Shown here: positions 3,994-64,000 of the stretch, in pieces
How the letters are laid out: every line of letters starts with the position of its first letter
How positions within the stretch are numbered: position 1 is the stretch's first letter
Origin: Nitrosomonadales bacterium
GTDB lineage: Bacteria; Pseudomonadota; Gammaproteobacteria; Burkholderiales; Gallionellaceae
Assembly: GCA_016235045.1 (NCBI GenBank)
Contig: JACRME010000004.1
Location: 186,001-250,000, forward strand
Direction: 5' to 3'
DNA length: 64,000 bases
Program-made: the position numbers and the translations under genes
The notes under the pieces: model-generated
Database searches by the model: none
Seen by the model: the letters and a program-made list of their open reading frames with translations, nothing else
What the model was told of the DNA's origin: nothing

Positions 3994-3994
3994 T

Positions 3995-6208: not shown

Positions 6209-7493
6209 ATTGGCCTCCCGCCAGCTTCAGGGCGCCGCCCTGACCGGCCATGAACACCGGCAATTCCGCCTCCTGCATGGCAAACGCCGCACTGCCCTTG
6301 GCCACATCCTTGAACACGCGATGCAGCAGGTACTCCAGGTTCACTTCGTGCAAATCTTCCGGCACGCGCTGGCCGCTGGCAACATAGTGCATGGTCAGCT
6401 TGTGGCGCACCACCACGTCCAGCACCGTGCCCAGCGTCACCGCCTCGTCCAGTTTGGTCGGGATGCAGCCGATCACACCGGTGCCGCCGTACATCTTGAC
6501 CACGTCGTCCAGCGTGCCGCCGGAGCTGGTGGCGTTCAGCAGCAGCAGGCGCTGCACGCCCACCGTATCGAACATCTGCGCCTGCTCCGCCACGCGGCTG
6601 TCGCGCTGGCCGACGCCCATGGTGTCGATGATGACCAGATGCTTGTGCTTGAGGCCGGACAGCGTGAGTTTCAAATCTTCGGTGTCGCGCACCGCATGCA
6701 CCGAGACGCCGAGGATCTTGCCGTAAATCTTCAGTTGCTCGTGCGCCCCGATACGATAGCTGTCGGTGGTGACCAGCGCCACCTTGTCCGCGCCGTAGCG
6801 CACCACGGCACGCGCCGCCAGCTTGGCGGTGGTGGTGGTCTTGCCGACGCCGGTGGGGCCGACCAGCGCATACACGCCGCCGCGCGCCACCACGTCTTCC
6901 TGCACGGTCGCCACGCGCAGGTTGTGGCCGAGAATGCGGCGCAGCCAATCGAGTCCGCCGTCGGGGGGGATTTTTTCCAGCAACTGGCGCGACAGCAGCG
7001 GGCTGAAGCCGACGTTGAGCATGTCGCGCAGCAATCCGCCGCGCACCGGGTCGCGTTGCTGCATGTCCGACCAGGACAGGCGCGCCATCTGCTCCTGCAT
7101 CAGGTTGCGCATGGTCTTGATCTCGGACAGCAGCGTTTGCTGTTCGGCACTGGTATCCCTGCCCTCGCGCACGGCGCTGGCTTCCAGCACCCTGGCGCCC
7201 AGGGTCGCCGCCTGCGTCGCCCCTTGCGCGCTGAGCTTGCCGGGACGCTCCGCCTGCCGGTCGGCTCTTCCCTTCAGCTCTTCCGCAGGCCGGTTTCCGC
7301 GCGGCGCGGCAGCACCCGCTCCGCCCACCCGCGTCTCGCTCAAGTGCGCCAATTCGGCCCCGGCCACCGCCACGATCTCCACGCCTTCCGCCACCTTGCG
7401 GTTGGACAGGATCACGGCATCGTCGCCGAGTTCGACACGTACCAGCTTCAGCGCGTCGCGCGAACTGGCTGCAATAAATTTTCTGGCGTTCAT
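6198..7493 (-). CDS. flhF: Flagellar biosynthesis SRP-type GTPase FlhF
   Basis: FlhF is a signal recognition particle GTPase homologue that sets the position of the flagellum at the pole. The 431-residue product has an N-terminal B domain (MNARKFIAASSRDALKLVR, then DDAVILSNRKVAEGVEIVA), a low-complexity linker, and the NG GTPase domain. The P-loop GPTGVGKTTTTAKLA is near residue 213. Other motifs are VTTDSYRIGAHEQL, the switch-like DTMGVGQRD and the TKLDE specificity motif. Its start overlaps the flhA stop by 4 bases (ATGA), and flhG follows directly. The flhA-flhF-flhG-fliA order is standard for polar flagellates. Confidence 0.96.
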   Translation of the reverse strand: MNARKFIAASSRDALKLVRVELGDDAVILSNRKVAEGVEIVAVAGAELAHLSETRVGGAGAAAPRGNRPAEELKGRADRQAERPGKLSAQGATQAATLGARVLEASAVREGRDTSAEQQTLLSEIKTMRNLMQEQMARLSWSDMQQRDPVRGGLLRDMLNVGFSPLLSRQLLEKIPPDGGLDWLRRILGHNLRVATVQEDVVARGGVYALVGPTGVGKTTTTAKLAARAVVRYGADKVALVTTDSYRIGAHEQLKIYGKILGVSVHAVRDTEDLKLTLSGLKHKHLVIIDTMGVGQRDSRVAEQAQMFDTVGVQRLLLLNATSSGGTLDDVVKMYGGTGVIGCIPTKLDEAVTLGTVLDVVVRHKLTMHYVASGQRVPEDLHEVNLEYLLHRVFKDVAKGSAAFAMQEAELPVFMAGQGGALKLAGGQYAL

Positions 7494-9568: not shown

Positions 9569-9800
9569 TTCCGCACTCCCCGGGTCGATTCCTGCAGTCC
9601 GCACAGACTGCTTCTCTTGTGCGTATTATCGGGAACGGACGGCAAACCGATGGGGGGAATAGAGGGGGATTTCCGCGGTAATTCAGCAGTGTCAGGAACT
9701 GTCTACACCGCTACGCAGGCAAGACAAACTTGTGCCGGACGTACCCACCCGACAAAAACTGCCCCGGATGAAACTCGTCTTTCATTCTTGGACGCAATAT

Positions 9801-9896
9801 CCCCTCCCCCTTGCAGGGGGAGTTGGGGAGGGGGTAGATACGCTGCCGTTCCACAACTCTACCCCCATCCTAACCTTCCCCCTGCAAGGGGGAAGG
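9801..9896. repeat. Long imperfect inverted repeat between flhA and flhB
   Basis: Two G/C-rich arms (CCCCTCCCCCTTGCAGGGGG at 9801-9820 and CTTCCCCCTGCAAGGGGGAAG at 9875-9895) are each palindromic and also mirror each other, with TAGA/TCTACCCCC flanks. This is the form of a REP/BIME-type dispersed intergenic element. It occupies the roughly 360-base gap between flhA and flhB, where no gene is seen. A strong cruciform here could attenuate transcription from flhB into flhA. Confidence 0.7.
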
Positions 9897-9931
9897 AACC
9901 GGTTCAGCACTATTGGGCAACCCGTGTTCAA

Positions 9932-11080
9932 TTAACTTGCCGCAACATTGGCAGGATCGAGCTCCTTCGGCACCGGCAGTTCGTGCGGCTCCTGCGGAAA
10001 CTCGCCGCCGAGCTTCCGGTAGCGGCGCAACTGGTAGACGTAGGCCAGCACTTCGGCCACGGCGTTGAACAGCGCCTCGGGGATGGCGTGGCCGAGGTCG
10101 CAATGCTTGTGCAGTGCCCGCGCCAGCGGTGGCGCTTCGAGGATGGGCACGTTGTGTTCGCTGGCGATTTCCCTGATCTTCGCCGCCAGCAAATGCGAGC
10201 CCTTGGCCACCACGACGGGCGCGCGCATCCGGTTTTCGCTGTATTTGAGCGCCACGGCATAGTGCGTCGGGTTGGTCACCACCACGTCGGCGGTCGGTAT
10301 CTCGGCCATCATGCGGCGGCGCGCCATCTCGCGCTGCATGCTGCGCACGCGCGCCTTGACCTGCGGGTCGCCCTCGGTCTCCTTGGATTCCTGGCGCACT
10401 TCCTCTTTGGTCATCTTCAGTTTCTTGTTGTGTTCCCACAACTGGAACGGTACGTCCACCGCCACGATCAGCAGCATACCGCCCATGATGGCGGCGAAAC
10501 TGCCCCACACCAGGCTGCCCAGATGCGGAATGGCGAACGCAATGGGTTCGCTCACCAGTTGCAGCACGGCTTCGCGGTTGTGCCACACCACCCAGGCGCC
10601 GACGCCGCCCACCACCACCGATTTGGCGATGGCCTTGGCCAGTTCCATCAGGCTGTTGGTAGAGAACATGCGGCCGATGCCGGTAAGCGGGTTGAGCTTG
10701 TCGAAATTGGGTTGCAGCGGCTTGAGCGTGAACAGCCAGCCGTTCAGCAGCAACGGCGAGAACATGGCGACCAGCAGCAGCAAGCCCAGCAGCGGCAAGA
10801 AGGCCAGCAGCGTCGCCTCGCTCAGTTCGTGCAGTCGCGGCAGCAGCAGTTCGGAATGAAAGGCCAGGCCGCTGTCCAGCGTGAGTCCCTCGCGGATCAG
10901 AGTGATGAGTTGACGCCCCAGCATCGAACCCATCATCCAGATGCCGGCTCCGCCTGCCATCATCACCGCAAACGTGGAAAGCTCGCGCGAACGCGCGACT
11001 TGCCCTTCCTCGCGCGCCTGATCCAGGCGCCGCTGCGAGGGCGATTCCGTTTTTTCCAGATCGCTGTCTTGTTCGGCCAT
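9932..11080 (-). CDS. flhB: Flagellar type III export switch protein FlhB
   Basis: FlhB is the export-gate component that switches substrate specificity from rod/hook to filament proteins. The 382-residue product starts MAEQDSDLEKTESPSQRRL and has four membrane helices. The conserved autocleavage site NPTH is in VVVTNPTHYAVALKYSEN near residue 270. The C-terminal domain ends with the typical VLAYVYQLRRYRKLGGEFP. It is transcribed ahead of flhA, with a repeat-filled gap of about 360 bases between them. An AGGACTC sequence precedes the ATG. Confidence 0.96.
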   Translation of the reverse strand: MAEQDSDLEKTESPSQRRLDQAREEGQVARSRELSTFAVMMAGGAGIWMMGSMLGRQLITLIREGLTLDSGLAFHSELLLPRLHELSEATLLAFLPLLGLLLLVAMFSPLLLNGWLFTLKPLQPNFDKLNPLTGIGRMFSTNSLMELAKAIAKSVVVGGVGAWVVWHNREAVLQLVSEPIAFAIPHLGSLVWGSFAAIMGGMLLIVAVDVPFQLWEHNKKLKMTKEEVRQESKETEGDPQVKARVRSMQREMARRRMMAEIPTADVVVTNPTHYAVALKYSENRMRAPVVVAKGSHLLAAKIREIASEHNVPILEAPPLARALHKHCDLGHAIPEALFNAVAEVLAYVYQLRRYRKLGGEFPQEPHELPVPKELDPANVAAS

Positions 11081-11177
11081 GACTGAGTCCTTTGTACATG
11101 GCGATTATCGGTGAGCAAGAAAAGGCTAAGCCAGAGAATAAGGGGGGAAATCGGGGGTATTTTGGGTAACTGATTTA

Positions 11178-11897
11178 TTACGTCCGGGTATTCCGCGAAG
11201 CGAAACAATAATCCGCATCATTACTCACTTTCGCGCAATACATCGCATCGTCTGCCGCATCCAGCAGCGCAATGCCATCCTGTCCGTGGTCCGGGTAAAG
11301 AGCGATACCCGCACTGACCCCGAGTCCGATATGCCTGCCACTCACCTCGAACGGCCTGGTAAGTTCAACCACGATCTTGCGCACAACTCTCTCGGCGACG
11401 GTGGCTTCCGCAATTGACGTAAGCAGCACGGTGAATTCGTCGCCGCCGATGCGCGCCACCGTATCGCTTTCCCGCACGCAGCCACAAATACGTTCGGCAA
11501 CTTGATTGAGAACGACATCGCCGATGCGATGTCCGTAGGTATCATTAACCGGTTTGAATCGGTCAAGATCCAGGTAGATCACTGCACAGTTTTTCTTTTC
11601 CCTCCTGGCAACAACCAATGCCTGTGCCAACCGATCATGGAATAGCAGACGGCTCGGCAGTCCGGTCAGATGGTCGCGATACGCCATCTGTAGCGGTCTG
11701 AGCTGATAGTTGAATAAAAGCGGGATGCACACAACGGCCAGCACTCCGGCATCTACCAAGGCGCGAACCCACTTCGAATAATGAGCCTCTTCCAGTGCCA
11801 CGTTGACCGTCATCATGAACAGCATTTCGATTGCGGCAATCATTCCCAACAACACAAAAAAATTCCGCATGGGTACCTTCCTGAACATATCCATCAT
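11178..11897 (-). CDS. Membrane diguanylate cyclase (GGDEF)
   Basis: This enzyme is predicted to make c-di-GMP. The 239-residue protein has two N-terminal membrane helices (about residues 11-33 and 45-62) with a very short periplasmic loop, so the sensor part is minimal. A complete GGDEF domain follows: YRDHLTGLPSRLLFHDRL, LDLDRFKPVNDTYGH, and RIGGDEFTVLL as the active site. An RESD lies five residues before GGDEF, matching the inhibitory I-site RxxD. The gene stands alone between flhB and a divergent HTH gene. A role in motility-to-sessile control is inferred from its neighbours, not shown. Confidence 0.9.
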   Translation of the reverse strand: MMDMFRKVPMRNFFVLLGMIAAIEMLFMMTVNVALEEAHYSKWVRALVDAGVLAVVCIPLLFNYQLRPLQMAYRDHLTGLPSRLLFHDRLAQALVVARREKKNCAVIYLDLDRFKPVNDTYGHRIGDVVLNQVAERICGCVRESDTVARIGGDEFTVLLTSIAEATVAERVVRKIVVELTRPFEVSGRHIGLGVSAGIALYPDHGQDGIALLDAADDAMYCAKVSNDADYCFASRNTRT

Positions 11898-48794: not shown

Positions 48795-51320
48795 TTACAG
48801 GCCGGCAGCGCACTGCCGGATCGCTTCTGCCATCGCACTCCCGCTCGCGTAGCGATCCTGGATCTTTTTCGCCAGCGCCTTGTTGACGATGGCAACCACG
48901 CACGGCGGCACATCCGGATTGACGCTCAGGATGTCCGTGTGCGGCTCGTTGGCGATGCGGAACATCAACTGCGCCATGGAATCCCCTTCGAACGGGAGCT
49001 TACCACACACAAGTTGGTACAGACTCACACCCAGCGAGAACAAATCGGAATGCCCTTCGATCTTGGTTCCGGCCAACTGCTCCGGCGACATGTAGGAAGG
49101 CGTGCCGAGCACCATGCCGGTTTTGGTCTTGGACGAATCGGTGATGCGCGCAATGCCGAAGTCGGTGACTTTCACCGAATCGCTGTCGGGGTCATACATG
49201 ATGTTGGCGGGCTTGATATCCCGGTGCACCACGTTCAGGCCGTGCGCATAGTTCAGCGCATCCGCCACGCGCGCCACGATGCTCAGCACTTTGGGCAGCG
49301 GCAGCAGGTTGGGTTGCTTGGTGTACATCACCAGGTCTTTGCCCTTGAGAAACTCCATCGCGATGTACGCCAGATCGTGCTCTTCGCCGGCGTCGTACAT
49401 GGTGACGATGTTGGGATGATTCAGGCGCCCCGCCGTTTCGGCTTCGCGGAAGAAACGGGCTTTGACTTCTTCCAGTTCGTCCGCCTCGAACTCCTGCGAC
49501 AGCGCCATGGTCTTGATCGCCACCACCCGGCTGATCTTCGGATCCTTGCCCAGGTAGACGACTCCCATCGCGCCCTTGCCCAACTCCTTCTCGATCTCGT
49601 AGCGCCCCAGCATCGGCTTGGCCACGTTTGCCTGATCCAGTTTCATCGTGCTGTCGTTGCTGCGGCCGGAGGAACTGCCCAGGATGATCGTTTCCGCCAT
49701 CGCCCTGGATTGCGCGGTGCGCGCTTCCAGGTCGCGGAACTTGGGATTGTGGTCGGCCATGTAATTGAACACCGATTCGGCCTTGTTGAACTGGCGCTTG
49801 CGCTCGAAGTCCAGCCCGAGGTTGTACAGCACATCCATCAGGCTGTCGTCCAGCGGCACCTTGCGGAACTTGTCGAAGGCCATATCCAGCTGGCCCTGCC
49901 CCTGGAACGCCAAACCCAGCATGCGATTGCTCTCTGCCGAATCCGCATCCGACTTGATCTTGCCTTTTTCCGTCATCAGGAAACGCTTGGTGGTCAGCAA
50001 CAGGTGCCCGACCAGCAACAGCGCGGCGGGCAGCATCAATTGCAGCCACATCGCCTGCGACGTCATCAGGATGAAATGAACGGCCAGCAACACCACAAAT
50101 ATGCCGCCCGTGATGGCAGCAGCCAATCCCGCGCTCAAGCGCGGCACCAACAGGATCAGGTAAAGCGAAACAGCGAGGAAGACGGCACTTTCGGCCCAGA
50201 ATCCCCATTTCGGCACGACAAAGAAATCCTGCTTGAGAATGCTGGACACCGAATGGGCCAGCGTCAGCACCGGCGCCATTCCCGGCGAGATCGGCGTCAC
50301 TTGCGATGCGCCCACGCCGGCGGCAGTGGCGCCGATCAGCACGATCTTGTCGCGGTATTTTTCGGGCGGGATCTTGCCGGACAGGACATCGTAAAACGAA
50401 TCCACCTGGAAGGCCGGCTTGCCCTCCTGATCGCTATAGAAGTGGGTGTACATGCGCGACGCGCTGTCCGTTGGAATCGTCAGGCCGCCCAGTTGGACGG
50501 ATTCGCCCAGCGTGACCTGGATATCTTTCGGTTCCAGGTTCAGACTTTTGGCCACCAGCATCAGCGCAAGCGAAGGGTAATACTGGTCATAGTAGCCCAG
50601 CACCAGCGGTTCGGCGCGAATGCCGCCATCCACATCTTTCCACATGGTGAGATGCCCGAGGGCAGTGGCCTTTTCCCCGAGCATGGGGATGGGAATGAGG
50701 ATTGCGGAGGTGGCGGGCGGCGCGCTTCCCGGCACGCCCTCCTTGATGCTGGTCAGGCTGTTTCTGGTCACAAACTCGGGCAGCTCGACATCCGGCTTGC
50801 CCTGCGGCTCGCCCAGATCGAAAACGACGCCGAGCAATACCTTGTTCGCCTGCGCCAGACTCTCGGCCAACTTCTTGTCGTTGTCGAGGTGGGCCAGCGC
50901 ATCCTGCATGATGTCGTTCAGTTGCGCCCATTCCCTGGGGTTGGAGCGGCGCAGCGAAGAATTGGTGAGAACCTCGTTCAGCCTTTCCAGATACTCCATG
51001 CCGGCGTCGACCTGGGGCTCGGAGAACAGCGCGGTATGGCCGATGACCTTGACGTTCCCGGTGGCCAGAATATCGATCATCATCGCGTGAATCTCGCGCG
51101 GCCACGGCCAACGCCCGAGATTGGCGATACTCTCGTCGTCGATGGCGATCACGGCGATCTTGTCGCTCGGCGTCTTCACCGAAGCAACCACCCCGATGTC
51201 GTAAGCCTTGCGCTCAAGACTCTGGATCAGATCGCTGTTGGCGCTGAACAAAAACACCAGCGCAACCAGCAAAGCCGCGAACCAGTCAGCTTTCCAAAAT
51301 GTTTTTTTCATAGTCGCCAT
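48795..51320 (-). CDS. CHASE2-sensor serine/threonine protein kinase with TPR-like segment
   Basis: The 841-residue kinase has an N-terminal helix, an extracytoplasmic CHASE2 domain (about 40-380: IAVIAIDDESIANLGRWPWP, KIVLIGATAAGVGASQVTP) and three membrane helices (about 385-455). A short TPR-like region (about 480-545) precedes the Hanks-type kinase domain (about 573-830). Catalytic motifs are LGKGAMGVVYLG, VVAIKTM, HRDIKPANIMY, VTDFGIARI and GTPSYMSPEQL. The CHASE2 domain resembles that of the adenylate cyclase downstream, suggesting both sense related signals. It is the first gene of the signalling operon. Confidence 0.93.
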   Translation of the reverse strand: MATMKKTFWKADWFAALLVALVFLFSANSDLIQSLERKAYDIGVVASVKTPSDKIAVIAIDDESIANLGRWPWPREIHAMMIDILATGNVKVIGHTALFSEPQVDAGMEYLERLNEVLTNSSLRRSNPREWAQLNDIMQDALAHLDNDKKLAESLAQANKVLLGVVFDLGEPQGKPDVELPEFVTRNSLTSIKEGVPGSAPPATSAILIPIPMLGEKATALGHLTMWKDVDGGIRAEPLVLGYYDQYYPSLALMLVAKSLNLEPKDIQVTLGESVQLGGLTIPTDSASRMYTHFYSDQEGKPAFQVDSFYDVLSGKIPPEKYRDKIVLIGATAAGVGASQVTPISPGMAPVLTLAHSVSSILKQDFFVVPKWGFWAESAVFLAVSLYLILLVPRLSAGLAAAITGGIFVVLLAVHFILMTSQAMWLQLMLPAALLLVGHLLLTTKRFLMTEKGKIKSDADSAESNRMLGLAFQGQGQLDMAFDKFRKVPLDDSLMDVLYNLGLDFERKRQFNKAESVFNYMADHNPKFRDLEARTAQSRAMAETIILGSSSGRSNDSTMKLDQANVAKPMLGRYEIEKELGKGAMGVVYLGKDPKISRVVAIKTMALSQEFEADELEEVKARFFREAETAGRLNHPNIVTMYDAGEEHDLAYIAMEFLKGKDLVMYTKQPNLLPLPKVLSIVARVADALNYAHGLNVVHRDIKPANIMYDPDSDSVKVTDFGIARITDSSKTKTGMVLGTPSYMSPEQLAGTKIEGHSDLFSLGVSLYQLVCGKLPFEGDSMAQLMFRIANEPHTDILSVNPDVPPCVVAIVNKALAKKIQDRYASGSAMAEAIRQCAAGL

Positions 51321-54813: not shown

Positions 54814-54846
54814 AAAAAAGGGCGCCAGACCCGCGTCCGACGCCCC
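54814..54846 (-). terminator. Rho-independent terminator after the outer-membrane protein gene
   Basis: On the minus strand GGGCG and CGCCC flank a G/C-rich loop and are followed by TTTTTTAAT. It lies 30 bases past the stop at 54876 and separates the cytochrome/outer-membrane operon from sucCD. Confidence 0.75.
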
Positions 54847-54875
54847 CATCGATGGGCTCTGCCACCTCGAAAAAC

Positions 54876-57041
54876 CTAGAAATCCCAGCGCAGCCCGCCC
54901 GAATAGAAGAATCGCCTGGTTTTCGAGCTCATCTGGATGCCGCTGTAGCTTATATATTCGATGCCGCAATCCACATCGAAATTGAGCCGCTCCTTGAATT
55001 GGTACGAACCGCGCAGCATGGGCGAGGTGCGCGTCGTCTTGCCGCCATACTGGTCTTTGTAGCCAGACAGTTGCAGCGAAGTGTCCACCATCCATCCCTT
55101 GTTCAACTGGGTATGGTTATACACATAGAGGGAGCGTCCGTTCACGGCACTGCTGGTGCTGAAAGAAATGCTTCCCGACCAGACATCGCCCTCCTTGTAG
55201 ATGCCGCTGCCGATGATTTGTCCGGTCACGGACTTTTCCGTGCCGCGGCTTGGTATGGCTTCCACATAACCTTCCGGCGCCGTTGCGCCGCCGGTCGGTG
55301 CGGTTCCGCTTGCCGCCAGGCCGGTCGTATTGGAAATCCGGAAATCGCCCCCCGCCTGCCATTTTTCCCGCAAAGGCACCGTGATCCCGACCTGACCCAT
55401 ATTTGAATTTGCGGTGCGCAACAGCGCCAGATCGCGCAAGCTGCTTGCCGACATGGTTTGCAGCAACGCACTCACCGACGACACGCTTGCGCCGTTCAGC
55501 GCGTTGCGGATACTCAGGGAAGGCGCCTTGCGGTGATCGACCATCATGTTCACCGAGGCATTGGCCAACTTGGCCGTTCCCATCAGTTGCGCCGCGTTCA
55601 CCGCCTTGAAATAGGTGTCGTAATCCAGCAGCGCAAACACCGTATTGTTGTCGTCGAAATATCGCACCTCGGTGCCCACCGCACGCCGGTCGAGCGTGCC
55701 ATCCAGCGTTTGCGTGATGCCGTACAGGGAAAACATTCCCTTGTCCACGCTGGCACCGTAAAACCTGGGCTTGCTGCCTTGCGAATAATCCGCCAACGCC
55801 CCCGCCACCGCGTTCGCGCGCAAATTTTCCGCATTTCCGTACGAGCCTGCGATACCGTCGAACCGTCCCAGCACGCCGCCGCCGGCGGCGGATTGGCGTC
55901 CCACGCGCAACAGATAGTCTTGCGTGCGTCCCTTGATTTCGCCGTAGGCGGCACTCACCCGGTTCTGGCTGGGCTGATTGGACAGGAAGTTGCGGGTATT
56001 CGTGTCGCGAAACACCAGGCGCGCGTCTTTTTCTTCGCTGCGGTAGCGTTCCGAAACGTCCACGCTGGTGATGAGCATGGATTGGTCGGTCAGCGACTGC
56101 GTATCGGTCGTGGTCGTGCTGTTGAATGTGTGGTTCGTTTCAATCGTGCTCTTGCCGTAGTAATAACGCGAGGACACGCTGCCGTAGGTCACCAGGCTGG
56201 AAGCCTGTTTCTTTTCTGGGACATCCGACATCAGTTTGGTCTTGCCCACGCCCGACAAACCGGCCAGGCGTTGCGCCGTGCGCGCCGCGCCGGCTCCTTC
56301 CGGATACAGACGCAAATACAAGTCGTACTCGACTTTTGCCTTGGCATCCTGACCGGCGCGTTCGCGTGCCACGCCTATCCATTCCTGCCCGTCCTGGGTG
56401 TAATCGTTGGGAGGCAACAGCAGCAGTTTGTTCAATATCTCGACCGCCGCCTCGTTGTTTTTGGCGGCCAGCGCATCGCGGCCCTGCGCCATCAAATCGT
56501 GCGCCTGGATGTTCGTCTCGGCGATGGCGGCTTGCTGTTCCGGCGTGAGCGTTGGGGACGCCGCCGCCTTTACCACCGGCTTGACCGTTGGCAGGAACGG
56601 CAGCGGCTCGTCGCTTACCCTGCGCTTGACGGGAAGAATGGTGACCAGCAGGCTGCGTTTATCCTTTCCTGCGGCCACGCTATATTCCGCCTCGCCCGAA
56701 AACTCGATCACCAGCTTCGGCTTGGTCTGCTGGTCGCGCGTGGTCACTGTAAAGCCGGGGATGAGGTTGGTCGGCGGCGATTTGCGCGACTCCCCGTCCG
56801 TCCAGGCCTCGTTGCTTGTCGCCCCCGCAACGCGGTCGTAATAGATTTCCAGCGTGTTGCCGTGGCTTTCCGGAAAGTGCCGCAAGTACTGTACCGGCCC
56901 GGTCATGCGGATGGTGGCGACCACCCCCTGGTTCTGATACTCGAGACTCACGTCATCCAGCGGCTGGGCATTTGCGATGGCAGGAAATGCGAACACCGGC
57001 AACAGTCCGCACATCAAGCGAAAAAACGGGAAACTTTTCAT
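54876..57041 (-). CDS. Outer-membrane beta-barrel protein with TPR region, possible porin of a cytochrome conduit
   Basis: The 721-residue exported protein has a signal peptide (about 1-25, FAFPAIANA then QPLDD) and a beta-rich N-terminal domain (about 26-140). A TPR/helical stretch follows (about 165-265, AAIAETNIQAHDLMAQGRDA, RERAGQDAKAKVEYDLYLRL). A long region of alternating strands (about 290-721) ends RRFFYSGGLRWDF. The C-terminal Phe is the usual signal for outer-membrane insertion. AAGGAG lies before the chosen ATG. It is the last gene after three multihaem cytochromes, suggesting it houses or docks a cytochrome. No family name is claimed. Confidence 0.8.
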   Translation of the reverse strand: MKSFPFFRLMCGLLPVFAFPAIANAQPLDDVSLEYQNQGVVATIRMTGPVQYLRHFPESHGNTLEIYYDRVAGATSNEAWTDGESRKSPPTNLIPGFTVTTRDQQTKPKLVIEFSGEAEYSVAAGKDKRSLLVTILPVKRRVSDEPLPFLPTVKPVVKAAASPTLTPEQQAAIAETNIQAHDLMAQGRDALAAKNNEAAVEILNKLLLLPPNDYTQDGQEWIGVARERAGQDAKAKVEYDLYLRLYPEGAGAARTAQRLAGLSGVGKTKLMSDVPEKKQASSLVTYGSVSSRYYYGKSTIETNHTFNSTTTTDTQSLTDQSMLITSVDVSERYRSEEKDARLVFRDTNTRNFLSNQPSQNRVSAAYGEIKGRTQDYLLRVGRQSAAGGGVLGRFDGIAGSYGNAENLRANAVAGALADYSQGSKPRFYGASVDKGMFSLYGITQTLDGTLDRRAVGTEVRYFDDNNTVFALLDYDTYFKAVNAAQLMGTAKLANASVNMMVDHRKAPSLSIRNALNGASVSSVSALLQTMSASSLRDLALLRTANSNMGQVGITVPLREKWQAGGDFRISNTTGLAASGTAPTGGATAPEGYVEAIPSRGTEKSVTGQIIGSGIYKEGDVWSGSISFSTSSAVNGRSLYVYNHTQLNKGWMVDTSLQLSGYKDQYGGKTTRTSPMLRGSYQFKERLNFDVDCGIEYISYSGIQMSSKTRRFFYSGGLRWDF

Positions 57042-57113
57042 ACTCAACTCCTTGCTAACAATTTCGTCAACCCGCCCTATCTGCAGGCTTGAAAATCCAT
57101 TTGTCTCATCGGC

Positions 57114-57145
57114 AGAAGCCGCACAAACCGGTTTGTGCGGCTTCT
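57114..57145 (-). terminator. Perfect 32-base palindrome between cytochrome and outer-membrane genes
   Basis: AGAAGCCGCACAAACC (57114-57129) is followed directly by its exact complement GGTTTGTGCGGCTTCT (57130-57145). The minus-strand transcript would fold into a 14-16 bp hairpin 15 bases after the 16-haem cytochrome stop. No T-tract follows, so it may be a processing or stabilising hairpin or a partial terminator. It leaves about 70 bases before the next ATG at 57041. Confidence 0.7.
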
Positions 57146-57159
57146 ATATATAAATGTCA

Positions 57160-58548
57160 TTAATCCCAGTTGGTATACAGGCTGCCCTTGCTGCCCGCCG
57201 GCCTGTGACAGCCGCTCGCCGAGCAATCTGCCGCCGACGGATTCTTGCTGCTCTCGTGGAAATTGGGCCAGCTTGCAGTCCTCTGGCCTTGTCCGGAGTA
57301 AACAGTATTATTTCCGTGGCAGGTGTAGCAGCCGATGCCGCCCAGATAGGCGTGCAAAGCGCTTCCGCCCAGCACACTCGATCCGGTGTGGCAGGAACTG
57401 CAAGACGGCGCGGTACCTTCCGGAATGTGTTTGGCCGGCTTGCTGCCCAGGGCGCTCGACCATGTGCCGGTGGAGGTATGGCAATTCGAGCAGTCTTGCG
57501 CGGTGGTCGAGTCCTCATGACTGCCAAGTGTCATCTTCGTCCTGACCACGTATGCGGAAGTGGAAGAGTGGCAGGTGTTGCAGGTCGTAATGCCGCCATG
57601 GTTCATCGTATATACGGTGAAGGTTGTGGTACTCCGGTGGCACAAATCGCAGTTCGGATCCCCTCCCGCAGTCAACGGGATATGCAATCCGTTCGGGTCG
57701 TTGATCGTGCCCTTCACCCCGTTCGTGCCGTTGTGGCATGTTCCGCAAATGCCGGTGACGGCGCCGTTGTGATAGCTGGCGCCCAACCATGTGGTGGTGT
57801 TCCTGTGGCAGGTATTGCATTCGGCAGTTGTGCTTCCGTGCGTTGGCCCTTTCCCGGCAGCGGTGACTCCGTTGTGGCAACTCGAACACACTGCGGGGCT
57901 ATTGTGTTTATACGGGGCAGGACTCCAGGCGAAGTAGCTATGGCAGTCGTCGCACGCCGGATCGGACAGCTTGTATCCGGTATGGGTCGATCCCCGGAAA
58001 TACTGGTTGGAACCCTGGACATGGCAACCTGCGGTTGCGCAATTTCCCGGCGCTACGCCGATGTGGTTCCAGCTCGCCGGCAGCCAGGTGTAGGACCGAT
58101 GGCATTGATCGCAGGACTTGGTCGACTTGTTCAGGTTGCCGGCGTGGCTCGCCGGTTTGGCCATGGACAGCCTGCCGTTATGGCAAGTCAGGCATTGGCC
58201 CGGCTGGGCGGTGCCGTGGTTGTATCTTGCGCCCAGGAAAGTGGAGGCATTGAAGTGGCAGGTATCGCACGGCGCATCGGTCACGATATGGCCGGTGGAT
58301 TTCGGCGTTGCCACCACACGCTTGCCCAGGGAGTGGCAACCGTCGCAATTTCTCGCCGTGCCCCTGAACACGCCGGCAACGTGGCAGGTTTCGCACGCAG
58401 CCGCGGCATGGCCTCCGGTCAGCGGAAAGCCGGTGGCCACGTGATTGAAGCTGAGCCCGGCCGTGTTTGTTTCAGCCATCGCCTGCAGCGCCAATACGGC
58501 AACCGCCGCGGCAACCACCTTGCCCAACATCCGCCCCAGTCGTTTCAT
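57160..58548 (-). CDS. Periplasmic or outer-surface multihaem c-type cytochrome, 14 CxxCH plus 2 CX4CH
   Basis: The 462-residue exported cytochrome has a signal peptide cleaved after about residue 25 (LALQAMA, then ETNTAG). It contains fourteen CxxCH motifs (CETCH, CDGCH, CDTCH, CLTCH, CDQCH, CDDCH, CSSCH and others) and two wider CX4CH motifs (CATAGCH, CSASGCH), for up to 16 haems. Many distal His residues (SWNHIG, YKHNSP, SYHNGA) fit bis-His ligation. It is paralogous to the next protein upstream over the first 150 residues and the last 60. I chose the ATG at 58548 (MKRLGRMLG) to give a standard signal peptide. Confidence 0.92.
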   Translation of the reverse strand: MKRLGRMLGKVVAAAVAVLALQAMAETNTAGLSFNHVATGFPLTGGHAAAACETCHVAGVFRGTARNCDGCHSLGKRVVATPKSTGHIVTDAPCDTCHFNASTFLGARYNHGTAQPGQCLTCHNGRLSMAKPASHAGNLNKSTKSCDQCHRSYTWLPASWNHIGVAPGNCATAGCHVQGSNQYFRGSTHTGYKLSDPACDDCHSYFAWSPAPYKHNSPAVCSSCHNGVTAAGKGPTHGSTTAECNTCHRNTTTWLGASYHNGAVTGICGTCHNGTNGVKGTINDPNGLHIPLTAGGDPNCDLCHRSTTTFTVYTMNHGGITTCNTCHSSTSAYVVRTKMTLGSHEDSTTAQDCSNCHTSTGTWSSALGSKPAKHIPEGTAPSCSSCHTGSSVLGGSALHAYLGGIGCYTCHGNNTVYSGQGQRTASWPNFHESSKNPSAADCSASGCHRPAGSKGSLYTNWD

Positions 58549-58702
58549 GCCGTGCCTTTTTTTGTCATATTGATCACCCAGCGGATGCCGCAAGACATTC
58601 CTTGCGCAGCCTGCTTCCGTATTACTTGCCTTGCCTGATTACTGTTGCGGTAACCGCAGCTCTCCTGCGGTCGGCGCTTGTTTCGGGAACGCAAAAAACG
58701 AA

Positions 58703-58730
58703 TGCCGCGCAAATCAATACTTGCGCGGCA
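58703..58730 (-). terminator. Hairpin with T-tract between two cytochrome genes
   Basis: TGCCGCGCAA and TTGCGCGGCA form a perfect 10-bp stem with an 8-base loop. On the minus strand it is followed after four bases by TTTTTT. It lies 17 bases past the 13-haem cytochrome stop, inside the 198-base gap before the 16-haem gene. A partial terminator that lowers expression of the distal genes is likely. Confidence 0.75.
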
Positions 58731-58746
58731 GTATTTCCTTATCGCA

Positions 58747-59880
58747 TCAATTCCATTTGATGTAGAGAGAACCATTGTTGCCCGCCGGCCTGTGGCAACC
58801 GCTCGCAGAACAATCCGTTGCCGACGGATTGTCGCCGCTTTCATGGAAGTTGGGCCAGCTTGCCGTCTGCTGTCCGGCCCCGGAGTAGGCGGTATTGCTG
58901 CCGTGACAGGTATAGCAGGCAATGCCGGACACGTAGCCATGCAAGGTTGCGCCCGTCCTGATACTCGTCCATGTCGTTGTTCCGATGTGGCAGGTATCGC
59001 ACGACAAGGCGCCCGTATAGGGAATGTGTTTGGACGACTTGTAGGGCGCGGCGGTGGTCCCGTTGTGGCAGTTCAAGCACAGCCCCGCCTCGTTGCCCGA
59101 GTGCCAGGCTGCCGGCAGCCATGCCGTTTTCGACCGGTGGCAGGTATCGCAGCTCGCCCCGTTGACCACCAGGTGTCCGGCTTTTACGGTGTGGCAGCTA
59201 TCGCAGGTTCCCGCAACCAGATGCTTGAACGGGGCCGGAGTCCAACTGCCGAAAATATGGCATTGATCGCACGCGGGGAAATAGGACGCCTTGGTCGGAA
59301 TATTGTATGGGGTCGCGCTGCTGTGCGCCGGCGGCTGGCCCGGCGCTTCGGTTCCGTTGTGGCATTGCGTACCGCAGAGACCCGGCGTCGCACCGATATG
59401 GTTCCAGCTTGCCGGCAGCCAGGCAAAGGAACGATGGCATTGATCGCAGGATTTGGTCGCCTTATTGCCGCTGCTGTGGCTTGCCGGTTTGGCCGTGGAC
59501 AACCGGCCGTTATGGCAAGTCATGCACTGGCCCGGCTGCGCCGTACCGTGGTTGTAACGCGCCCCGAGAAAGGTGGCGGCATTGAAGTGGCAGGTATCGC
59601 ACGGCGCATCGGTCACGATGTGGCTGGTGGATTTCGGCGTTGCCACCACGCGCTTGCCCAACGCATGGCAGCCGTCGCATTCTTTCGGGGTGCCTTTGAA
59701 AACACCGGCCACGTGGCAGGTTTCGCAGGCCGCAGTGACGTGCGCCCCGTTCAACTGGAAGCCGGTGGACAGGTGGTTGAAATCGCGCCCGGCGGTATTG
59801 GTTTCGGCCGTTGCCTGCATGGCAAGCACCAACATTACCGCAGCGATCGCGCAGCCAGCTATTTGCTTTAGTCGTTTCAT
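58747..59880 (-). CDS. Multihaem c-type cytochrome, 11 CxxCH plus CX3CH and CX4CH
   Basis: The 377-residue exported cytochrome has a signal peptide cleaved after about residue 25 (LAMQATA, then ETNTAG). Eleven CxxCH motifs are joined by one CX3CH (CGTQCH) and one CX4CH (CSASGCH), for up to 13 haems. It shares blocks with the 16-haem protein downstream, such as NHGTAQPGQCMTCHNGRLS, KSCDQCHRSFAWLPASWNH and the C-terminal GCHRPAGNNGSLY. The two arose by duplication with gain or loss of haem units. The ATG overlaps the stop of the 21-haem gene by four bases (ATGA). Confidence 0.92.
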   Translation of the reverse strand: MKRLKQIAGCAIAAVMLVLAMQATAETNTAGRDFNHLSTGFQLNGAHVTAACETCHVAGVFKGTPKECDGCHALGKRVVATPKSTSHIVTDAPCDTCHFNAATFLGARYNHGTAQPGQCMTCHNGRLSTAKPASHSSGNKATKSCDQCHRSFAWLPASWNHIGATPGLCGTQCHNGTEAPGQPPAHSSATPYNIPTKASYFPACDQCHIFGSWTPAPFKHLVAGTCDSCHTVKAGHLVVNGASCDTCHRSKTAWLPAAWHSGNEAGLCLNCHNGTTAAPYKSSKHIPYTGALSCDTCHIGTTTWTSIRTGATLHGYVSGIACYTCHGSNTAYSGAGQQTASWPNFHESGDNPSATDCSASGCHRPAGNNGSLYIKWN

Positions 59881-61640
59881 GATCCACTCCCGAACATAAT
59901 TTGCATTAATCCGCTTTCCGACGAATCTTTATTTTTCGACGCTTTCTTCTTCTGCTTCGTCGTTTTCTTTGGCGACTCCGTCTTGTTCGATACTTTCCGG
60001 TACGGCTCCTGCTTCCCCTGCTCCGAATTCAGCGCAACTTTTCTCGGCAACTCCTGCTTGTTTTGCCGCAGAGCGGTCACTCCGATTTTCACCTGTTTCC
60101 AGGTATCGCCATCGTGGCAGCGCTCGCAGCGGTCGCCGAAGCTGCCGTTGTGCACGTCCTCCCGATCATGGCAACTGCCGCATGCGGAAGGCAGCACCAC
60201 TTTTTTATCCACCGGCTTCTTGTGGCACGCATAACAATTGTTGGCGCCCTTCTTGTGCGGCCCGTCCAGCTTGAATTTGGTCTTGTCGTGGTCGAAGTCC
60301 CACGCCTTCCAGTCGCGTGCGTTGTGGCAAGACTGGCATTCCGTACCGAACTTGCGCTTGTGCACGTCGCCCTTCTCATGGCACGACCAGCAATCCGATT
60401 TGGCGTCCTTGAAAGTCGGTGCAGCGTGGCACTTTTTGCATGCTACCAGCGCATGCCGGCCGAGCAAGGGGAAGACCGACATCTTGTTATGGTTGAAAGC
60501 GGTCTTGGTCCACGACTCCTCGTTATGGCAAGTCTCGCACTTCTTGCCTTCCTGGCCTTTGTGCTTGTCATCTTTTTCATGGCAGGAAAGGCAGTCGCTT
60601 TTCAGTTTGTCCTTGTACAGATCGCCCTTGTGGCAATCCACGCATTTCACTTTCTGGTGCTTGCCGAGCAGGGGATATTTGGTCTGCTTGTCATGATCGA
60701 AAATGATTTCCTTCCAGTCTTTTTCGACATGGCAGGTTTCGCACTTCGGCCCGAATTTGCCCTTGTGCGCCTTGTCGTCCTCTTTTTTATGGCAGGCATT
60801 ACACAGCTTGGGCGTGTCCTTGTACTTCTTGTTGATGTGGCACTTGTCGCACTTCGCTTCCTTGTGCTTGCCCAGCAGCGGATACTTGGTCTTCTTGTCG
60901 TGATCGAACAGGACATCCTTCCAGTCCTTCGCGGTATGGCAAGACTCGCACTTCGGACCGAGCTTGCCCTTGTGCGCCTTGTCGTCATCCTTCTTGTGGC
61001 AGGATTTGCAATCCAGCGGCGTATCCTTGAACTTGTTGTCAATGTGGCATTTGTCGCACTTCACGTCGACGTGCTTGCCCGTCAACTTGAACTTGGTCTT
61101 GTCGTGCTCGAACGCAACCGTCTTCCAGTCTTTTTCGCCATGGCACTTCGCGCAGTCCGTTCCCAGGCCGCCTTTGTGCTTGTCGTCTTTCTTGTGGCAC
61201 TCGTTGCAGTAGCTGGGCGCTTCGCGATACTTCTTGTCGGCCTTGTGGCAGTCGGTACATTTCACCTTTTCTTTCAGGTGCCCGCCCTTCAATGCCAAAT
61301 CGGTTTTGTCATGGTCGAATTTGGCATGATCGAATTCGGCGACCTTGGCATCGCGGCCTTTGTGGTCGGGATGGCATTCATTGCATTGCTTGATTGTCTC
61401 CTGACGCCCGTGGAAGCCGCGCTTCTCGTCGATATCCTTGCCAACATCCTTGTGGCAATCGGAACACAGGCCGGATTGCGCGGCCTTGTCGAATTTCTTG
61501 TGGCACTTCTCGCAATTCTCTTCTTCTTTGGCATGCCCCTTGATGACGTCGCCCGGCATCAGCAATTTGTTAGCCTGCGCCTGCATGGGGTAGACAAAAA
61601 ACAAGCTCGCCAGGGCGAGCATGCGCACAAAAATCTTCAT
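59877..61640 (-). CDS. 21-haem c-type cytochrome made of seven three-haem repeats
   Basis: The 587-residue exported cytochrome has a signal peptide (MKIFVRMLALASLFFVYPMQ, cleaved near residue 24) and 21 CxxCH motifs. The motifs fall into seven units of three. The central units repeat at about 69 residues with the order CDKCH, CKSCH, CESCH, then DWKDVLFDHDKK and YPLLGKH. His residues in FDHDK and GKH are likely distal ligands. A Lys-rich, haem-free tail of about 75 residues (KKTTKQKKKASKNKD) ends the protein. The linear repeat suggests an extended wire-like structure spanning the periplasm. I chose the ATG at 61640 because it starts the signal peptide. Confidence 0.93.
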   Translation of the reverse strand: MKIFVRMLALASLFFVYPMQAQANKLLMPGDVIKGHAKEEENCEKCHKKFDKAAQSGLCSDCHKDVGKDIDEKRGFHGRQETIKQCNECHPDHKGRDAKVAEFDHAKFDHDKTDLALKGGHLKEKVKCTDCHKADKKYREAPSYCNECHKKDDKHKGGLGTDCAKCHGEKDWKTVAFEHDKTKFKLTGKHVDVKCDKCHIDNKFKDTPLDCKSCHKKDDDKAHKGKLGPKCESCHTAKDWKDVLFDHDKKTKYPLLGKHKEAKCDKCHINKKYKDTPKLCNACHKKEDDKAHKGKFGPKCETCHVEKDWKEIIFDHDKQTKYPLLGKHQKVKCVDCHKGDLYKDKLKSDCLSCHEKDDKHKGQEGKKCETCHNEESWTKTAFNHNKMSVFPLLGRHALVACKKCHAAPTFKDAKSDCWSCHEKGDVHKRKFGTECQSCHNARDWKAWDFDHDKTKFKLDGPHKKGANNCYACHKKPVDKKVVLPSACGSCHDREDVHNGSFGDRCERCHDGDTWKQVKIGVTALRQNKQELPRKVALNSEQGKQEPYRKVSNKTESPKKTTKQKKKASKNKDSSESGLMQIMFGSGS

Positions 61641-61657
61641 GTTGTTATATCCGGAAA

Positions 61658-62566
61658 TCAATATGCATGCACCGCATAGACATGGTAGATGGCGCTGAAC
61701 ACCATCATGTACACCAGCGGAATGTGGAAGATATGCCACCACGAGAACAAACGCTCGTAGGTATTGAATTGCGCCGCATCCCTGACCGCATGAAGGTAGG
61801 CGACAATTTTTTCCTGGTAGTCGCCATACATCTCCTCCATGCCCTGTTGTTGCTCCGAGGTGAAGTGGTTCGCTTTGGCCTGCGCATGCATGACGTGATG
61901 CAATTCCCTGGGAAGCGACCTGGATAGCACCAGGGACTGAAAACCGATTACGATGAAATTGATGAATCCAAGACCGGACTGTCTGGAGTACCTTTCGGAT
62001 CGGGCGCGAAAATCTTCCAACGTTTTTTCCACGTTGGGCGCAAAACTAAACAGGGATTTTACGTCTCCGGTTTGCTCCAATTCCCCCCGCAACTCGTTAG
62101 CCGTGCTTTGGCGTCCATACAAGCTGTGATGGATTTTGGAATAAAAGAAACGTCCGAATGTGCCGCTGCCCGATACCAGCAGCATGCACAGCATTGCCAC
62201 CGCCGCGTTCGGCGAACCGATGGGATGGATGTACGGGATATAGACGTGGTAGGTGGAGTGGAAAATAATGGTCAGCGGCCCCAGAATTCCCAGCACCATA
62301 TGCCACTTGAACCAGCTCGGCAGAAAACCGAAGTTTTCGAAGAACTTGACCCGCTTGCGCAACGGGTAAAGCAGCAGTGTCAGCATCATCAGGCCGCCGG
62401 CCAACCCGAGGTTGTAACCCAGATCGAAAAGCTGCTCGCCCGGCTTGTATAACGTTTGCGGATAAAGCACCGGATATGCCGCAAGGGTAATAACCGCGAC
62501 GATGCCGATAAACACCAGCCAGTGCAAATGCTCAGATTGTGTTTTTGCGCTCATCAGTCTCTTCAA
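61658..62566 (-). CDS. Inner-membrane b-type cytochrome-like protein
   Basis: The 302-residue membrane protein has about six helices (about 14-34, 48-66, 86-106, 118-138, 195-213, 268-295). His residues within helices (WFKWHMVLG, IIFHSTYHVYI, WWHIFHIPL, AIYHVYAVHAY) could bind two b haems, as in ferric reductase or cytochrome b561-like proteins. There is no CxxCH. It is the first gene of the minus-strand cytochrome operon, 17 bases before the 21-haem gene. It is a candidate quinone-linked partner that exchanges electrons with the periplasmic cytochrome. Exact family is not recognised. Confidence 0.75.
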   Translation of the reverse strand: MKRLMSAKTQSEHLHWLVFIGIVAVITLAAYPVLYPQTLYKPGEQLFDLGYNLGLAGGLMMLTLLLYPLRKRVKFFENFGFLPSWFKWHMVLGILGPLTIIFHSTYHVYIPYIHPIGSPNAAVAMLCMLLVSGSGTFGRFFYSKIHHSLYGRQSTANELRGELEQTGDVKSLFSFAPNVEKTLEDFRARSERYSRQSGLGFINFIVIGFQSLVLSRSLPRELHHVMHAQAKANHFTSEQQQGMEEMYGDYQEKIVAYLHAVRDAAQFNTYERLFSWWHIFHIPLVYMMVFSAIYHVYAVHAY

Positions 62567-62954
62567 AACATCTTTATATTCAGCCCCATTCGGGCGGCGC
62601 CGATTGTAACTGCAAATTTATCGCCTACAAAACAAAGCCGGCCCGATTCTGGCGTTTTTCATTATTTTCTTTCCGATCATTAAAAGCAGAGGCCATACGA
62701 CGCTGGAAATTTCACAGAGTTTTGACATTACAAAAAAAATCGGGCGCAAACCTGACATTAGCTGACATTCGCCGGGGGGCCGTGTCCATTGCAGAGTATT
62801 CTCCAAAACTTAAGGATTGCTTAATTGGCCGGTTGAACTGGAATCAACATTAATTGTCACAGCATTGGTCTCGACATAGAATGCCCTCCTTCAACAATGG
62901 CATTAAGCGGGCGAAATTCCGGCCAATCCAAATATCCCAACACTCCCGACGCTC
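62567..62954. promoter_or_regulatory. Divergent regulatory region with phased TGACATT repeats
   Basis: This 388-base gene-free gap lies between the cytochrome operon (minus) and the ferredoxin-flavoprotein (plus). It is A/T-richer than its neighbours. TGACATT occurs three times in direct orientation at 62723, 62753 and 62763, spaced 30 and 10 bases apart, so all lie on the same face of the helix. That is the pattern of an activator or repressor site. The factor is unknown. Confidence 0.5.
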
Positions 62955-64000
62955 ATGAATATTGAATCTTTTGCTATCTACCTGGCACCGCTTGCATTGA
63001 TCGTTTTCTTTTATCTTCGCGGTCGGCATAAAAAAGAATCTTCCTCCATTGAGGTACTCAACGAGGCCATCGAAGCGGGACTGACCGAACCCTCCTCCTT
63101 GCACCCCGAAATCAACCCCAATATCTGCATGGGTGCAGGTAGCTGCATCACCGCCTGCCCGGAAGAAGCGATCGGCATGATCAAAGGCAAGGCAGTGCTG
63201 ATCAACCCGACCCATTGCATCGGCCACGGCGCGTGCGCCACCGCCTGCCCGCACGACGCGATCAAGCTGGTTTTCGGTACCTCGAAACGCGGCATGGACA
63301 TCCCGCAAGTCAATCCCAACTTTGAAACGAATGTGCCCGGCCTCTACATCGCGGGCGAACTCGGTGGCATGGGATTGATCCGCAAAGCGGCGACGCAAGG
63401 CAGCCAGGCGATAGATCACATCGCCAAACTCAAGGGCAGCAGAAACCCCTACGATGTTGTCATCGTCGGCACGGGCCCGGCCGGATTGGCCGCGACGCTT
63501 GGCGCAATCGAGCACAAGTTGCGCTATGTCACCGTCGAGCAGGAAAGTTCGCTAGGCGGCTGCATCTTCCAGTATCCGCGCAACAAGGTCGTCATGACGG
63601 CCCCGGTGAAACTTCCCGTCGTCGGAAAAATGCAATTCAAGGAGGTCAGCAAGGAAAAGCTGCTTGAATTCTGGCACGGGATCATCATCAAGGCCGGAAT
63701 GAAGCTGAATTACAACGAACGCATGGAGAACGTCACCAAAACCGACAAGGGCTTTATCGTCAAGACCAGCAAAGGTTCCTACGAAACCCGCGCAGTGCTG
63801 CTCGCCATCGGACGCCGCGGCACACCGCGCAAATTGGGAGTTCCCGGCGAAGATCTGCCGAAAGTGGTGTACCGCCTGATCGAACCCGAACAATACAAGA
63901 ATATGCATGTCCTGGTGGTAGGCGGCGGCGACAGCGCCCTGGAAGCCGCCATGGCCATCGCCGAGCAACCCGGCACCACCGTTACGCTTTCCTACCGCAG
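62955..64000 (+). CDS. Membrane-anchored ferredoxin-flavoprotein oxidoreductase, cut by window edge
   Basis: At least 348 codons are visible. An N-terminal membrane helix (about 5-21, FAIYLAPLALIVFFYL) precedes two ferredoxin-like motifs: CMGAGSCITACP (about 58) and CIGHGACATACP (about 85). In each the second Cys of CxxCxxCxxxCP is replaced (Ala, His). A segment NVPGLYIAGELGG follows, then an FAD-binding VVIVGTGPAGLAATLG and an NAD(P)-binding LVVGGGDSALEAAMAI. There is no redox CxxC of thioredoxin reductase. It is divergent from the multihaem operon and a likely cytoplasmic electron exchanger with NAD(P)H. The C-terminus is not seen. Confidence 0.85.
   Translation, partial: MNIESFAIYLAPLALIVFFYLRGRHKKESSSIEVLNEAIEAGLTEPSSLHPEINPNICMGAGSCITACPEEAIGMIKGKAVLINPTHCIGHGACATACPHDAIKLVFGTSKRGMDIPQVNPNFETNVPGLYIAGELGGMGLIRKAATQGSQAIDHIAKLKGSRNPYDVVIVGTGPAGLAATLGAIEHKLRYVTVEQESSLGGCIFQYPRNKVVMTAPVKLPVVGKMQFKEVSKEKLLEFWHGIIIKAGMKLNYNERMENVTKTDKGFIVKTSKGSYETRAVLLAIGRRGTPRKLGVPGEDLPKVVYRLIEPEQYKNMHVLVVGGGDSALEAAMAIAEQPGTTVTLSYR

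Follow-up and report, generated by a model that had tools for sequence, protein, structure and literature searches.

A permuted iron-sulfur flavoprotein linked to a predicted PCC3 porin-cytochrome cluster in a Gallionellaceae genome, and a possible electron path from NAD(P)H to the cell surface

We analyzed a stretch of 64,000 nucleotides (positions 186,001 to 250,000 of contig JACRME010000004.1, assembly GCA_016235045.1) from a Nitrosomonadales bacterium of the family Gallionellaceae; the whole stretch is referred to here as the window. Near one end of the window lie six genes that an earlier note, made from the sequence alone, had put forward as a candidate extracellular electron transfer locus. 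All six genes are present as first described (Table 1). Five of them are on the minus strand, transcribed in the order inner-membrane protein (IMP), 21-haem cytochrome, eMHC1, eMHC2, and outer-membrane barrel, and the sixth, encoding a membrane-anchored iron-sulfur (Fe-S) flavoprotein (FP), is divergent on the plus strand. The properties that the note had assigned to the products also held up: about 50 haem sites, a polytopic His-rich membrane protein, a 21-haem cytochrome built as 7 x 3, paralogous cytochromes with 13 and 16 haems, a TPR beta-barrel ending in Phe, and the divergent flavoprotein. Here, we ask what kind of locus this is and what the flavoprotein contributes to it.

Table 1. Genes and hairpins of the locus (positions in the window).
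Feature	Position	Strand	Details
FP, Fe-S flavoprotein with membrane anchor and permuted YpdA-like FAD/NAD(P) domain (predicted)	62955..64000 in window	+	431 aa
FP, end of full gene	window-equivalent 64250 (L005:2956-4251)	+	250 bases beyond window
IMP, inner-membrane protein	61658..62566	-	302 aa, 17 His, TTG start as listed
Periplasmic multihaem cytochrome	59877..61640	-	587 aa, 21 CXXCH as seven tri-haem units
eMHC1, predicted surface cytochrome	58747..59880	-	377 aa; 11 CXXCH + 1 CX3CH + 1 CX4CH = 13
eMHC2, predicted surface cytochrome, eMHC1 paralogue	57160..58548 (listed from 58593)	-	462 aa from Met at 58548
eMHC2 haem motifs	57160..58548	-	14 CXXCH + 2 CX4CH = 16
Outer-membrane barrel (PCC3 porin) with beta domain at the N-terminus, TPR helices, and a barrel of 22 strands	54876..57041	-	721 aa, ends RWDF
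Terminator-like hairpin between eMHC1 and eMHC2 genes	58703..58730	-	12 pairs
Terminator-like hairpin 3' of barrel gene	54818..54847	-	13 pairs

With 17 bases between the IMP and 21-haem genes and a 4-base overlap between the 21-haem and eMHC1 genes, at least the first three genes appear to share a transcript. The FP start lies 388 bases from the IMP start. The hairpin between the eMHC1 and eMHC2 genes is a possible attenuator; counts of terminator-like and promoter-like sites in the region show no excess over shuffled sequence.

The three window cytochromes together contain 46 strict CXXCH motifs, or 50 haem motifs when CX3-4CH forms are included. When the residues of each protein were shuffled 500 times, the mean number of CXXCH motifs was 0.13 to 0.23 and the maximum was 3, compared to 11, 14, and 21 observed. 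In the 21-haem protein, the gaps between motifs cycle in three phases (16-18, 18-27, and 32-42 residues), forming seven triplets with a mean lag-three spacing of 70.7 residues. The two shorter cytochromes, eMHC1 and eMHC2, are 50% identical over their full length. All three proteins exceed the cut-off of cytochrome c7/c3 Pfam models, and a search of solved structures with the 21-haem protein returned no match. Among cytochromes encoded next to an IMP gene, the CXXCH count is a multiple of three in 18 of 18 cases in our sample of the order (with both copies of the window genome counted) and in 48 of the 50 cases at named loci, which fits growth of the cytochrome by whole tri-haem units. One could still argue that these "cytochromes" are low-complexity repeats that bind no haem covalently, given their low complexity and the Lys content of the 21-haem gene product (114 in its listed frame of 621 aa). 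We rejected this artefact as scarcely credible in view of the Pfam matches, the shuffle counts, the regular tri-haem spacing, and the homologues with multiples of three. At two other loci, the surface-cytochrome region is divided into three frames with 17, 8, and 9 CXXCH motifs (L061 10138-13280 and L098 3827-6969), which are either tandem genes or a broken long gene.

The IMP carries the motif WX3HX13H at residues 85 and 277 and the motif SGXXG at residue 134, and both motifs are invariant in two sets of homologues, 18 of 18 and 53 of 53. In a structural model of the IMP (pLDDT 87), the HX13H pairs fall on two helices, H89/H103 on helix 82-103 (helix 3) and H281/H295 on helix 267-301 (helix 5). 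Judging by eye from the model and the positive-inside rule, H89 and H281 would be close to the cytoplasmic side and H103 and H295 close to the periplasmic side, and a helical cytoplasmic insertion at approximately residues 146-266 could dock FP. A Foldseek search with the IMP gave a best E of 0.5 and no match at E <= 0.001, a result with which a fold shared with solved ferric reductase and NOX proteins is still compatible. A solved-structure search with the IMP alignment found matches only at E 0.14 or worse, and a ferric-reductase transmembrane match is absent among the 25 of 36 Pfam families listed for the 53 IMP homologues. Membership of the IMP in the ferric-reductase family is thus unsupported by Pfam or Foldseek, and the likeness of the motifs alone remains.

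The barrel protein was modelled with AlphaFold2 from an alignment of 27 homologues (mean pLDDT 83.9, pTM 0.56). The model is a barrel: residues 30-138 form a beta domain, the TPR region (169-264) folds into five helices, and 22 strands span 284-722. The top Foldseek matches are pilus ushers and porins at E of approximately 1e-9, with low TM-scores of approximately 0.2-0.3 by query length. With E values allowed up to 0.1, every one of the 27 homologues matches TPR models, the best at 1.8e-6; the match of the window protein itself, at E 0.0058, is under the curated cut-off.

Given these features, the locus is, by sequence, a porin-cytochrome cluster of the type PCC3, a predicted type described in 2017 (He et al., PMC5566968) and still termed functionally unverified in a 2025 paper, according to the part of it consulted (PMC12442390). 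The sequence hallmarks listed for PCC3 by He et al. are present here: an encoded porin-like barrel, a periplasmic cytochrome with 21 haem sites, and an IMP of approximately 300 aa with two WX3HX13H motifs and SGXXG. The published gene order (IMP, periplasmic cytochrome, surface cytochrome, porin) is found in the window, in the loci of the order sample, and at the named loci. The two short cytochromes occupy the position of PCC3 surface cytochromes, and their 13 and 16 motifs fall within the range of 10-35 haems reported for such proteins in the sections consulted of PMC10734462; their surface location is predicted. A second PCC3 is present in the same genome on contig C33 (locus L006, G000:C33:95000-114999; 3163-11458), with an IMP, a 21-CXXCH cytochrome, a 974-aa cytochrome (33 CXXCH and 2 longer motifs), and an 886-aa porin; it has no FP beside it. 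Large multihaem cytochromes are encoded at 17 of 17 loci of the order sample, and a porin is seen at 14 of the 17. Two of the others are cut by contig ends, and the third (L070, G216:C1:64500-84499) encodes FP, an IMP, and cytochromes with 24 and 11 CXXCH motifs and shows no porin match in 20 kb.

The locus resembles MtrAB, MtoAB, and PioAB in combining a porin with multihaem cytochrome through the outer membrane. It differs from them in its cytochromes: the two short proteins score 24.1 and 38.5 bits against an MtrA-type cut-off of 192.2, and we rejected an MtoA/MtrA identity for them. A true decahaem gene of the MtrA/MtoA family, scoring 277 bits, is located on another contig of the genome, C32 (G000:C32:514533-519424; L160, L161). 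On the other strand, 3.6 kb from that gene, a 697-aa frame gives a second multihaem-like match of 40 bits. The earlier note had been right to separate the window locus from MtrABC/MtoAB, and its trans-envelope conduit, barrel, and link to NAD(P)H hold as far as sequence tells; what it had missed is that clusters of this kind had already been proposed as PCC3 (PMC5566968). Of the two outcomes that the note had named as refuting it, neither was seen: its barrel models as a barrel, and none of the 17 homologous loci of the order sample lacks large multihaem cytochromes.

The remaining gene, FP, begins with a hydrophobic stretch (residues 1-24) followed by basic residues, which suggests that the body of the protein is cytoplasmic. 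We scanned public genomes with FP alone and based our counts over the FP family on the best 80 of 568 confirmed stretches. The first Fe-S motif of the window protein lacks the second Cys; over 79 FPs, this position is Ser in 41, Cys in 29, Ala in 8, and Gly in 1. The corresponding position of the second motif is His in 79 of 79, and also in one further FP that is cut off before its first motif and therefore falls outside the 79. The pattern suggests that one cluster of FP is His-ligated and that many members of the family have a 3Fe or labile cluster.

The FP core (residues 166-431) matches YpdA, thioredoxin reductases, and ferredoxin-NADP reductases, and the solved protein closest to it in sequence is YpdA/Bdr (E = 7.8e-41). 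The Cys of the YpdA motif GGGPCG, which we take to be the catalytic Cys of that enzyme, is replaced in 80 of 80 FPs (Ala in 76, Ser in 4); FP was also aligned to 7a7b and 7a76. A role for FP as a thiol-disulphide reductase was judged unlikely on this ground. The segment FETNVPGLYIAGELGG precedes the core in FP, whereas in ordinary relatives it follows the core. Six flavoproteins of 781-942 aa from the same order (L073-L078) make the rearrangement visible: their N-terminal part matches the FP core at 29-39% identity, the region just behind it matches the segment FETNVPGLYIAGELGG at 42-51% identity (E 1e-11 to 7e-9), and their C-terminal part matches the Fe-S region of FP (E 7e-6 to 2e-3). Because the order of core and segment is reversed, the sequences indicate that the flavin domain of FP is circularly permuted relative to these flavoproteins. 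In 67 of the 80 FPs, the tail motif comes before the core; the other 13 give no pattern match, and in none does the motif lie behind the core. By eye, the flavoproteins of L073-L079 have cyclic-nucleotide-binding-like and ferredoxin parts behind their unpermuted flavin core.

We searched for IMP and FP separately in the same whole-genome samples of the order (300 genomes), the class (369 genomes), and the phylum (319 genomes). In the order sample, the 17 genomes with a strong IMP match are the same 17 that have a strong FP match. Weak matches, excluded here, account for 14 of 31 IMP-positive genomes (E 3e-8 to 4e-4, against E <= 1.2e-35 for the remaining 17) and for 15 of 32 FP-positive genomes (best E approximately 1e-31 to 1e-37, against E <= 6.2e-157 for the remaining 17). 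In the class sample, 4 of 46 IMP positives were dropped as weak (G390, G453, G465, and G542; E 1e-15 to 1e-20), 42 were kept at E <= 2.1e-53, and 41 genomes have both genes. The IMP matches of G634 and G561 are in pieces, the FP of G333 has an internal stop, and the FP of G397 is partial. At cut-offs of E 1e-30 for IMP and 1e-80 for FP, the same 4 genomes of the phylum sample hold both genes, three of which were already in the earlier samples. Counting genomes as independent despite their kinship, Fisher's test gives p = 4e-28 for the order and 7e-51 for the class. Copy numbers also run in parallel in five genomes of the class sample (G332, G335, G400, G598, and G615), each with two IMPs and two FPs.

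The two genes are usually neighbors, in more than one arrangement. FP is divergent beside IMP at 16 of the 17 loci of the order sample; the exception is G264, where both genes share a strand and FP is found past the porin gene. Of 48 FP matches in the class sample, 36 are divergent at <2 kb, 5 are otherwise placed at <12 kb, and 7 are on contigs without an IMP match. In the public-genome scan, 67 of the 80 FP stretches include an IMP gene, in five arrangements: divergent at <2 kb (56), convergent (4), on the same strand with IMP and the periplasmic cytochrome just upstream of FP (3), on the same strand with IMP downstream at <2 kb (3), and farther off (1). Five of the 13 stretches without IMP have a PCC3 porin match or a large cytochrome, and a strong IMP is found elsewhere in the genomes of 11. 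Because the linkage survives several rearrangements, it points to a joint function of FP and IMP rather than to a frozen neighbor. Judging from this near-perfect co-occurrence, FP appears close to a diagnostic fifth component of PCC3.

We propose that FP is the missing cytoplasmic end of the PCC3 conduit and that electrons pass from NAD(P)H to the outside, a reading to which we give slightly better than an even chance. In this proposal, NAD(P)H would reduce the FAD in the FP core, and the electrons would move through the two Fe-S clusters of FP to the cytoplasm-side haem b of IMP (H89/H281), from there to the periplasm-side haem b (H103/H295), and on to the 21-haem wire. From the wire they would travel by way of the barrel to both surface cytochromes, and the last acceptor would lie outside the cell, for example humic quinones or ferric minerals. 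FP and IMP together would then act as a split NADPH oxidase, or as an MsrQ fed by Fre. Starting from the computed gene content, motifs, barrel fold, FP-IMP co-occurrence and linkage, and FP domain order, we infer the binding of haems and clusters, NAD(P)H as the donor, the docking of FP on IMP, and the outward flow. A path from NAD(P)H through FAD, Fe-S clusters, and haems b to the surface runs downhill for the usual acceptors and along the membrane potential, while electrons drawn inward from Fe(II) to NAD(P)H by way of these components would have to run against the energy gradient and against the membrane potential. Precedents for outward transfer from flavin to haem b are the MsrQ/Fre system and the NOX family, as presented in the part of PMC11031084 consulted. 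A more specific version holds that PCC3 is a five-part machine in which an Fe-S flavoprotein, permuted, anchored in the membrane, and bearing a His-ligated cluster, carries electrons from NAD(P)H to the di-haem-b protein and the outside, bypassing the quinone pool; this version is tentative, and we rate it somewhat short of an even chance. If true, it would amount to a split NADPH-oxidase layout across both membranes, serving as an overflow or respiratory outlet common to iron oxidizers, methylotrophs, and others.

The published model, itself a hypothesis of PMC5566968, reads the conduit in the opposite direction: PCC3 would take electrons from outside, for example from Fe(II), and IMP would deliver them to the quinone pool, with FP as an accessory that regenerates or tunes another part. 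In its favor, PCC3 is found in many iron-oxidizing Gallionellaceae (PMC10734462, in the sections consulted). In Sideroxydans CL21, both PCC3 copies are expressed above the mean, and the sole significant change in the portion consulted of PMC12442390 is a rise of the copy-2 IMP when iron oxidation is possible. Against it, both PCC3 clusters of Sideroxydans ES-1 are lower on Fe(II) than on thiosulfate (PMC8788666), and in a magnetite study one cluster was largely undetected and the other was at similar levels in all samples, again as far as the consulted parts of these sources report. These published expression data do not favor Fe(II) oxidation by PCC3. In addition, FP loci are not confined to iron oxidizers: their titles name Methylotenera, Methylophilaceae, Methylococcaceae, Rhodoferax, Thiobacillus, and the symbiont Candidatus Thiodiazotropha, along with Gallionella and Sideroxydans. 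Such a range of hosts is more in line with a general outlet for electrons than with an iron oxidase, without deciding between them. The published model also has no place for a near-constant flavoprotein of the NAD(P) type, and on balance we regard it as unlikely, if still a serious candidate.

Alternatively, FP might serve the conduit without carrying its main flow, either as a redox sensor or as a keeper of reduced haem or apocytochrome cysteines during assembly. Such a helper would be in keeping with the position of FP, which is mostly divergent and outside the operon, and with the action of YpdA and thioredoxin reductases on disulphides. The consistent loss of the YpdA Cys noted above speaks against it, as do three loci (L120, L125, and L129) where FP is on the same strand directly behind the periplasmic cytochrome gene; two Fe-S motifs and a membrane helix are also better suited to an electron relay. 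We therefore consider a helper role improbable. A further idea, flavin-based splitting or merging, would have FP pair high- and low-potential electrons and, together with another carrier, send outside electrons to NAD(P)H. One flavin, two unusual Fe-S motifs, and two haem-b sites would provide enough redox sites, and autotrophic iron oxidizers need NAD(P)H. Set against this, no match to a known bifurcating family was obtained and the cluster revealed no second low-potential partner, so this idea seems very improbable.

Several observations weigh against the proposed outward path from NAD(P)H. According to the published PCC3 model, electrons go to quinones (PMC5566968), and the data here leave room for a quinone site in IMP. 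FP clusters without a Cys may be non-functional, and Pfam gave no ferric-reductase transmembrane match for the window IMP. The co-occurrence has exceptions: in the class sample, IMP stands alone in one genome (G489) and FP alone in two (G476, which is 72% complete, and G397, with its partial FP), and two of the 13 genomes whose FP stretches lack IMP have no IMP at all. The window genome itself has two IMPs and one FP. Finally, the literature searched yielded neither expression nor biochemical data on FP.

Since 2017, PCC3 has stood as a predicted conduit for which both the inner end and the direction of flow are hypothetical. The PCC3 cluster in the window is of an already proposed kind, and its linked FP appears to be the valuable, apparently unreported part. 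FP gives PCC3 a testable electron source and direction, a genetic handle, and a simple NAD(P)H assay, and it connects PCC3 with PCC4-like clusters, whose flavoproteins are homologous to FP with their domains rearranged. These results also advise caution in using PCC3 as a marker of iron oxidation.

The surroundings of the locus include two further features, both read by eye. Past FP and beyond the window end, small phage-like genes and a tyrosine-integrase-like gene (L005 5116-9928) reach up to genes for tRNA-Thr and tRNA-Lys (L005 10203-10365); an integrated element thus seems to border the PCC3 locus. On the other side, an 841-aa protein encoded on the minus strand at 48795-51320 has a CHASE2-like sensor, a TPR-like part, and a Ser/Thr kinase domain.

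Compared with known systems, the locus is closest to PCC3, which it resembles in the IMP motifs, the 21-haem periplasmic and shorter surface cytochromes, the large barrel, and the gene order. The presence of two clusters per genome is also as in Sideroxydans ES-1 and CL21, according to the parts consulted of PMC8788666 and PMC12442390. It differs in having two surface cytochrome genes between the 21-haem and porin genes, and an extra surface cytochrome beside the porin is reported for one genome of the Sphaerotilus-Leptothrix group in the part consulted of PMC13386937. The other difference is the linked FP, as none is described for PCC3 in the literature examined: in the text passages that our survey covered, an Fe-S flavoprotein is nowhere named as a PCC3 part. 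The main text of PMC5566968 does not contain "flavo," "pyridine," or "4Fe-4S," although its figures or supplement may still show an FP gene, and a literature search returned no paper joining PCC3, multiheme, and flavoprotein.

A second relative is PCC4, in which redox genes lie upstream of a tetrahaem cytochrome gene (He et al., PMC5566968). Likeness to PCC4 extends to an IMP with the same haem-b motifs, to a redox gene beside a tetrahaem cytochrome, and to a flavoprotein homologous to FP in the PCC4-like loci found here. In contrast, PCC4 has cytochromes with 4, 5, and 10 haems and no surface cytochrome, and the PCC4-like flavoproteins, at 781-942 aa, have the core before the tail and the Fe-S region at the C-terminus. 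Among the 14 genomes of the order sample with weak IMP matches, 12 have a weak match to the FP core, which in 9 cases shares a contig with the IMP match at a distance of <12 kb; a weak FP match without a weak IMP match occurs in three more genomes. Those weak matches whose loci were read are PCC4-like, with cytochromes of 4, 5, and 10 haems at L077, as in PCC4, and of 10, 10, and 4 haems at L073-L076 and L079. The pairing of IMP with such a flavoprotein therefore looks wider than PCC3.

The proposed path would resemble that of NADPH oxidase and MsrQ/Fre, where electrons pass from a cytoplasmic flavin to two haems b held by His pairs of two helices and then to the outside, as described in the part of PMC11031084 consulted. 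The differences are that FP belongs with YpdA and thioredoxin reductases, not with the FNR type, and has Fe-S motifs, and that Foldseek found no match of the IMP fold to these proteins. The bacillithiol disulphide reductase YpdA/Bdr is the closest solved relative of the FP core in sequence, and FP departs from it in its predicted circular permutation, its membrane helix, its two Fe-S motifs, and the Ala or Ser in place of the GGGPCG Cys.

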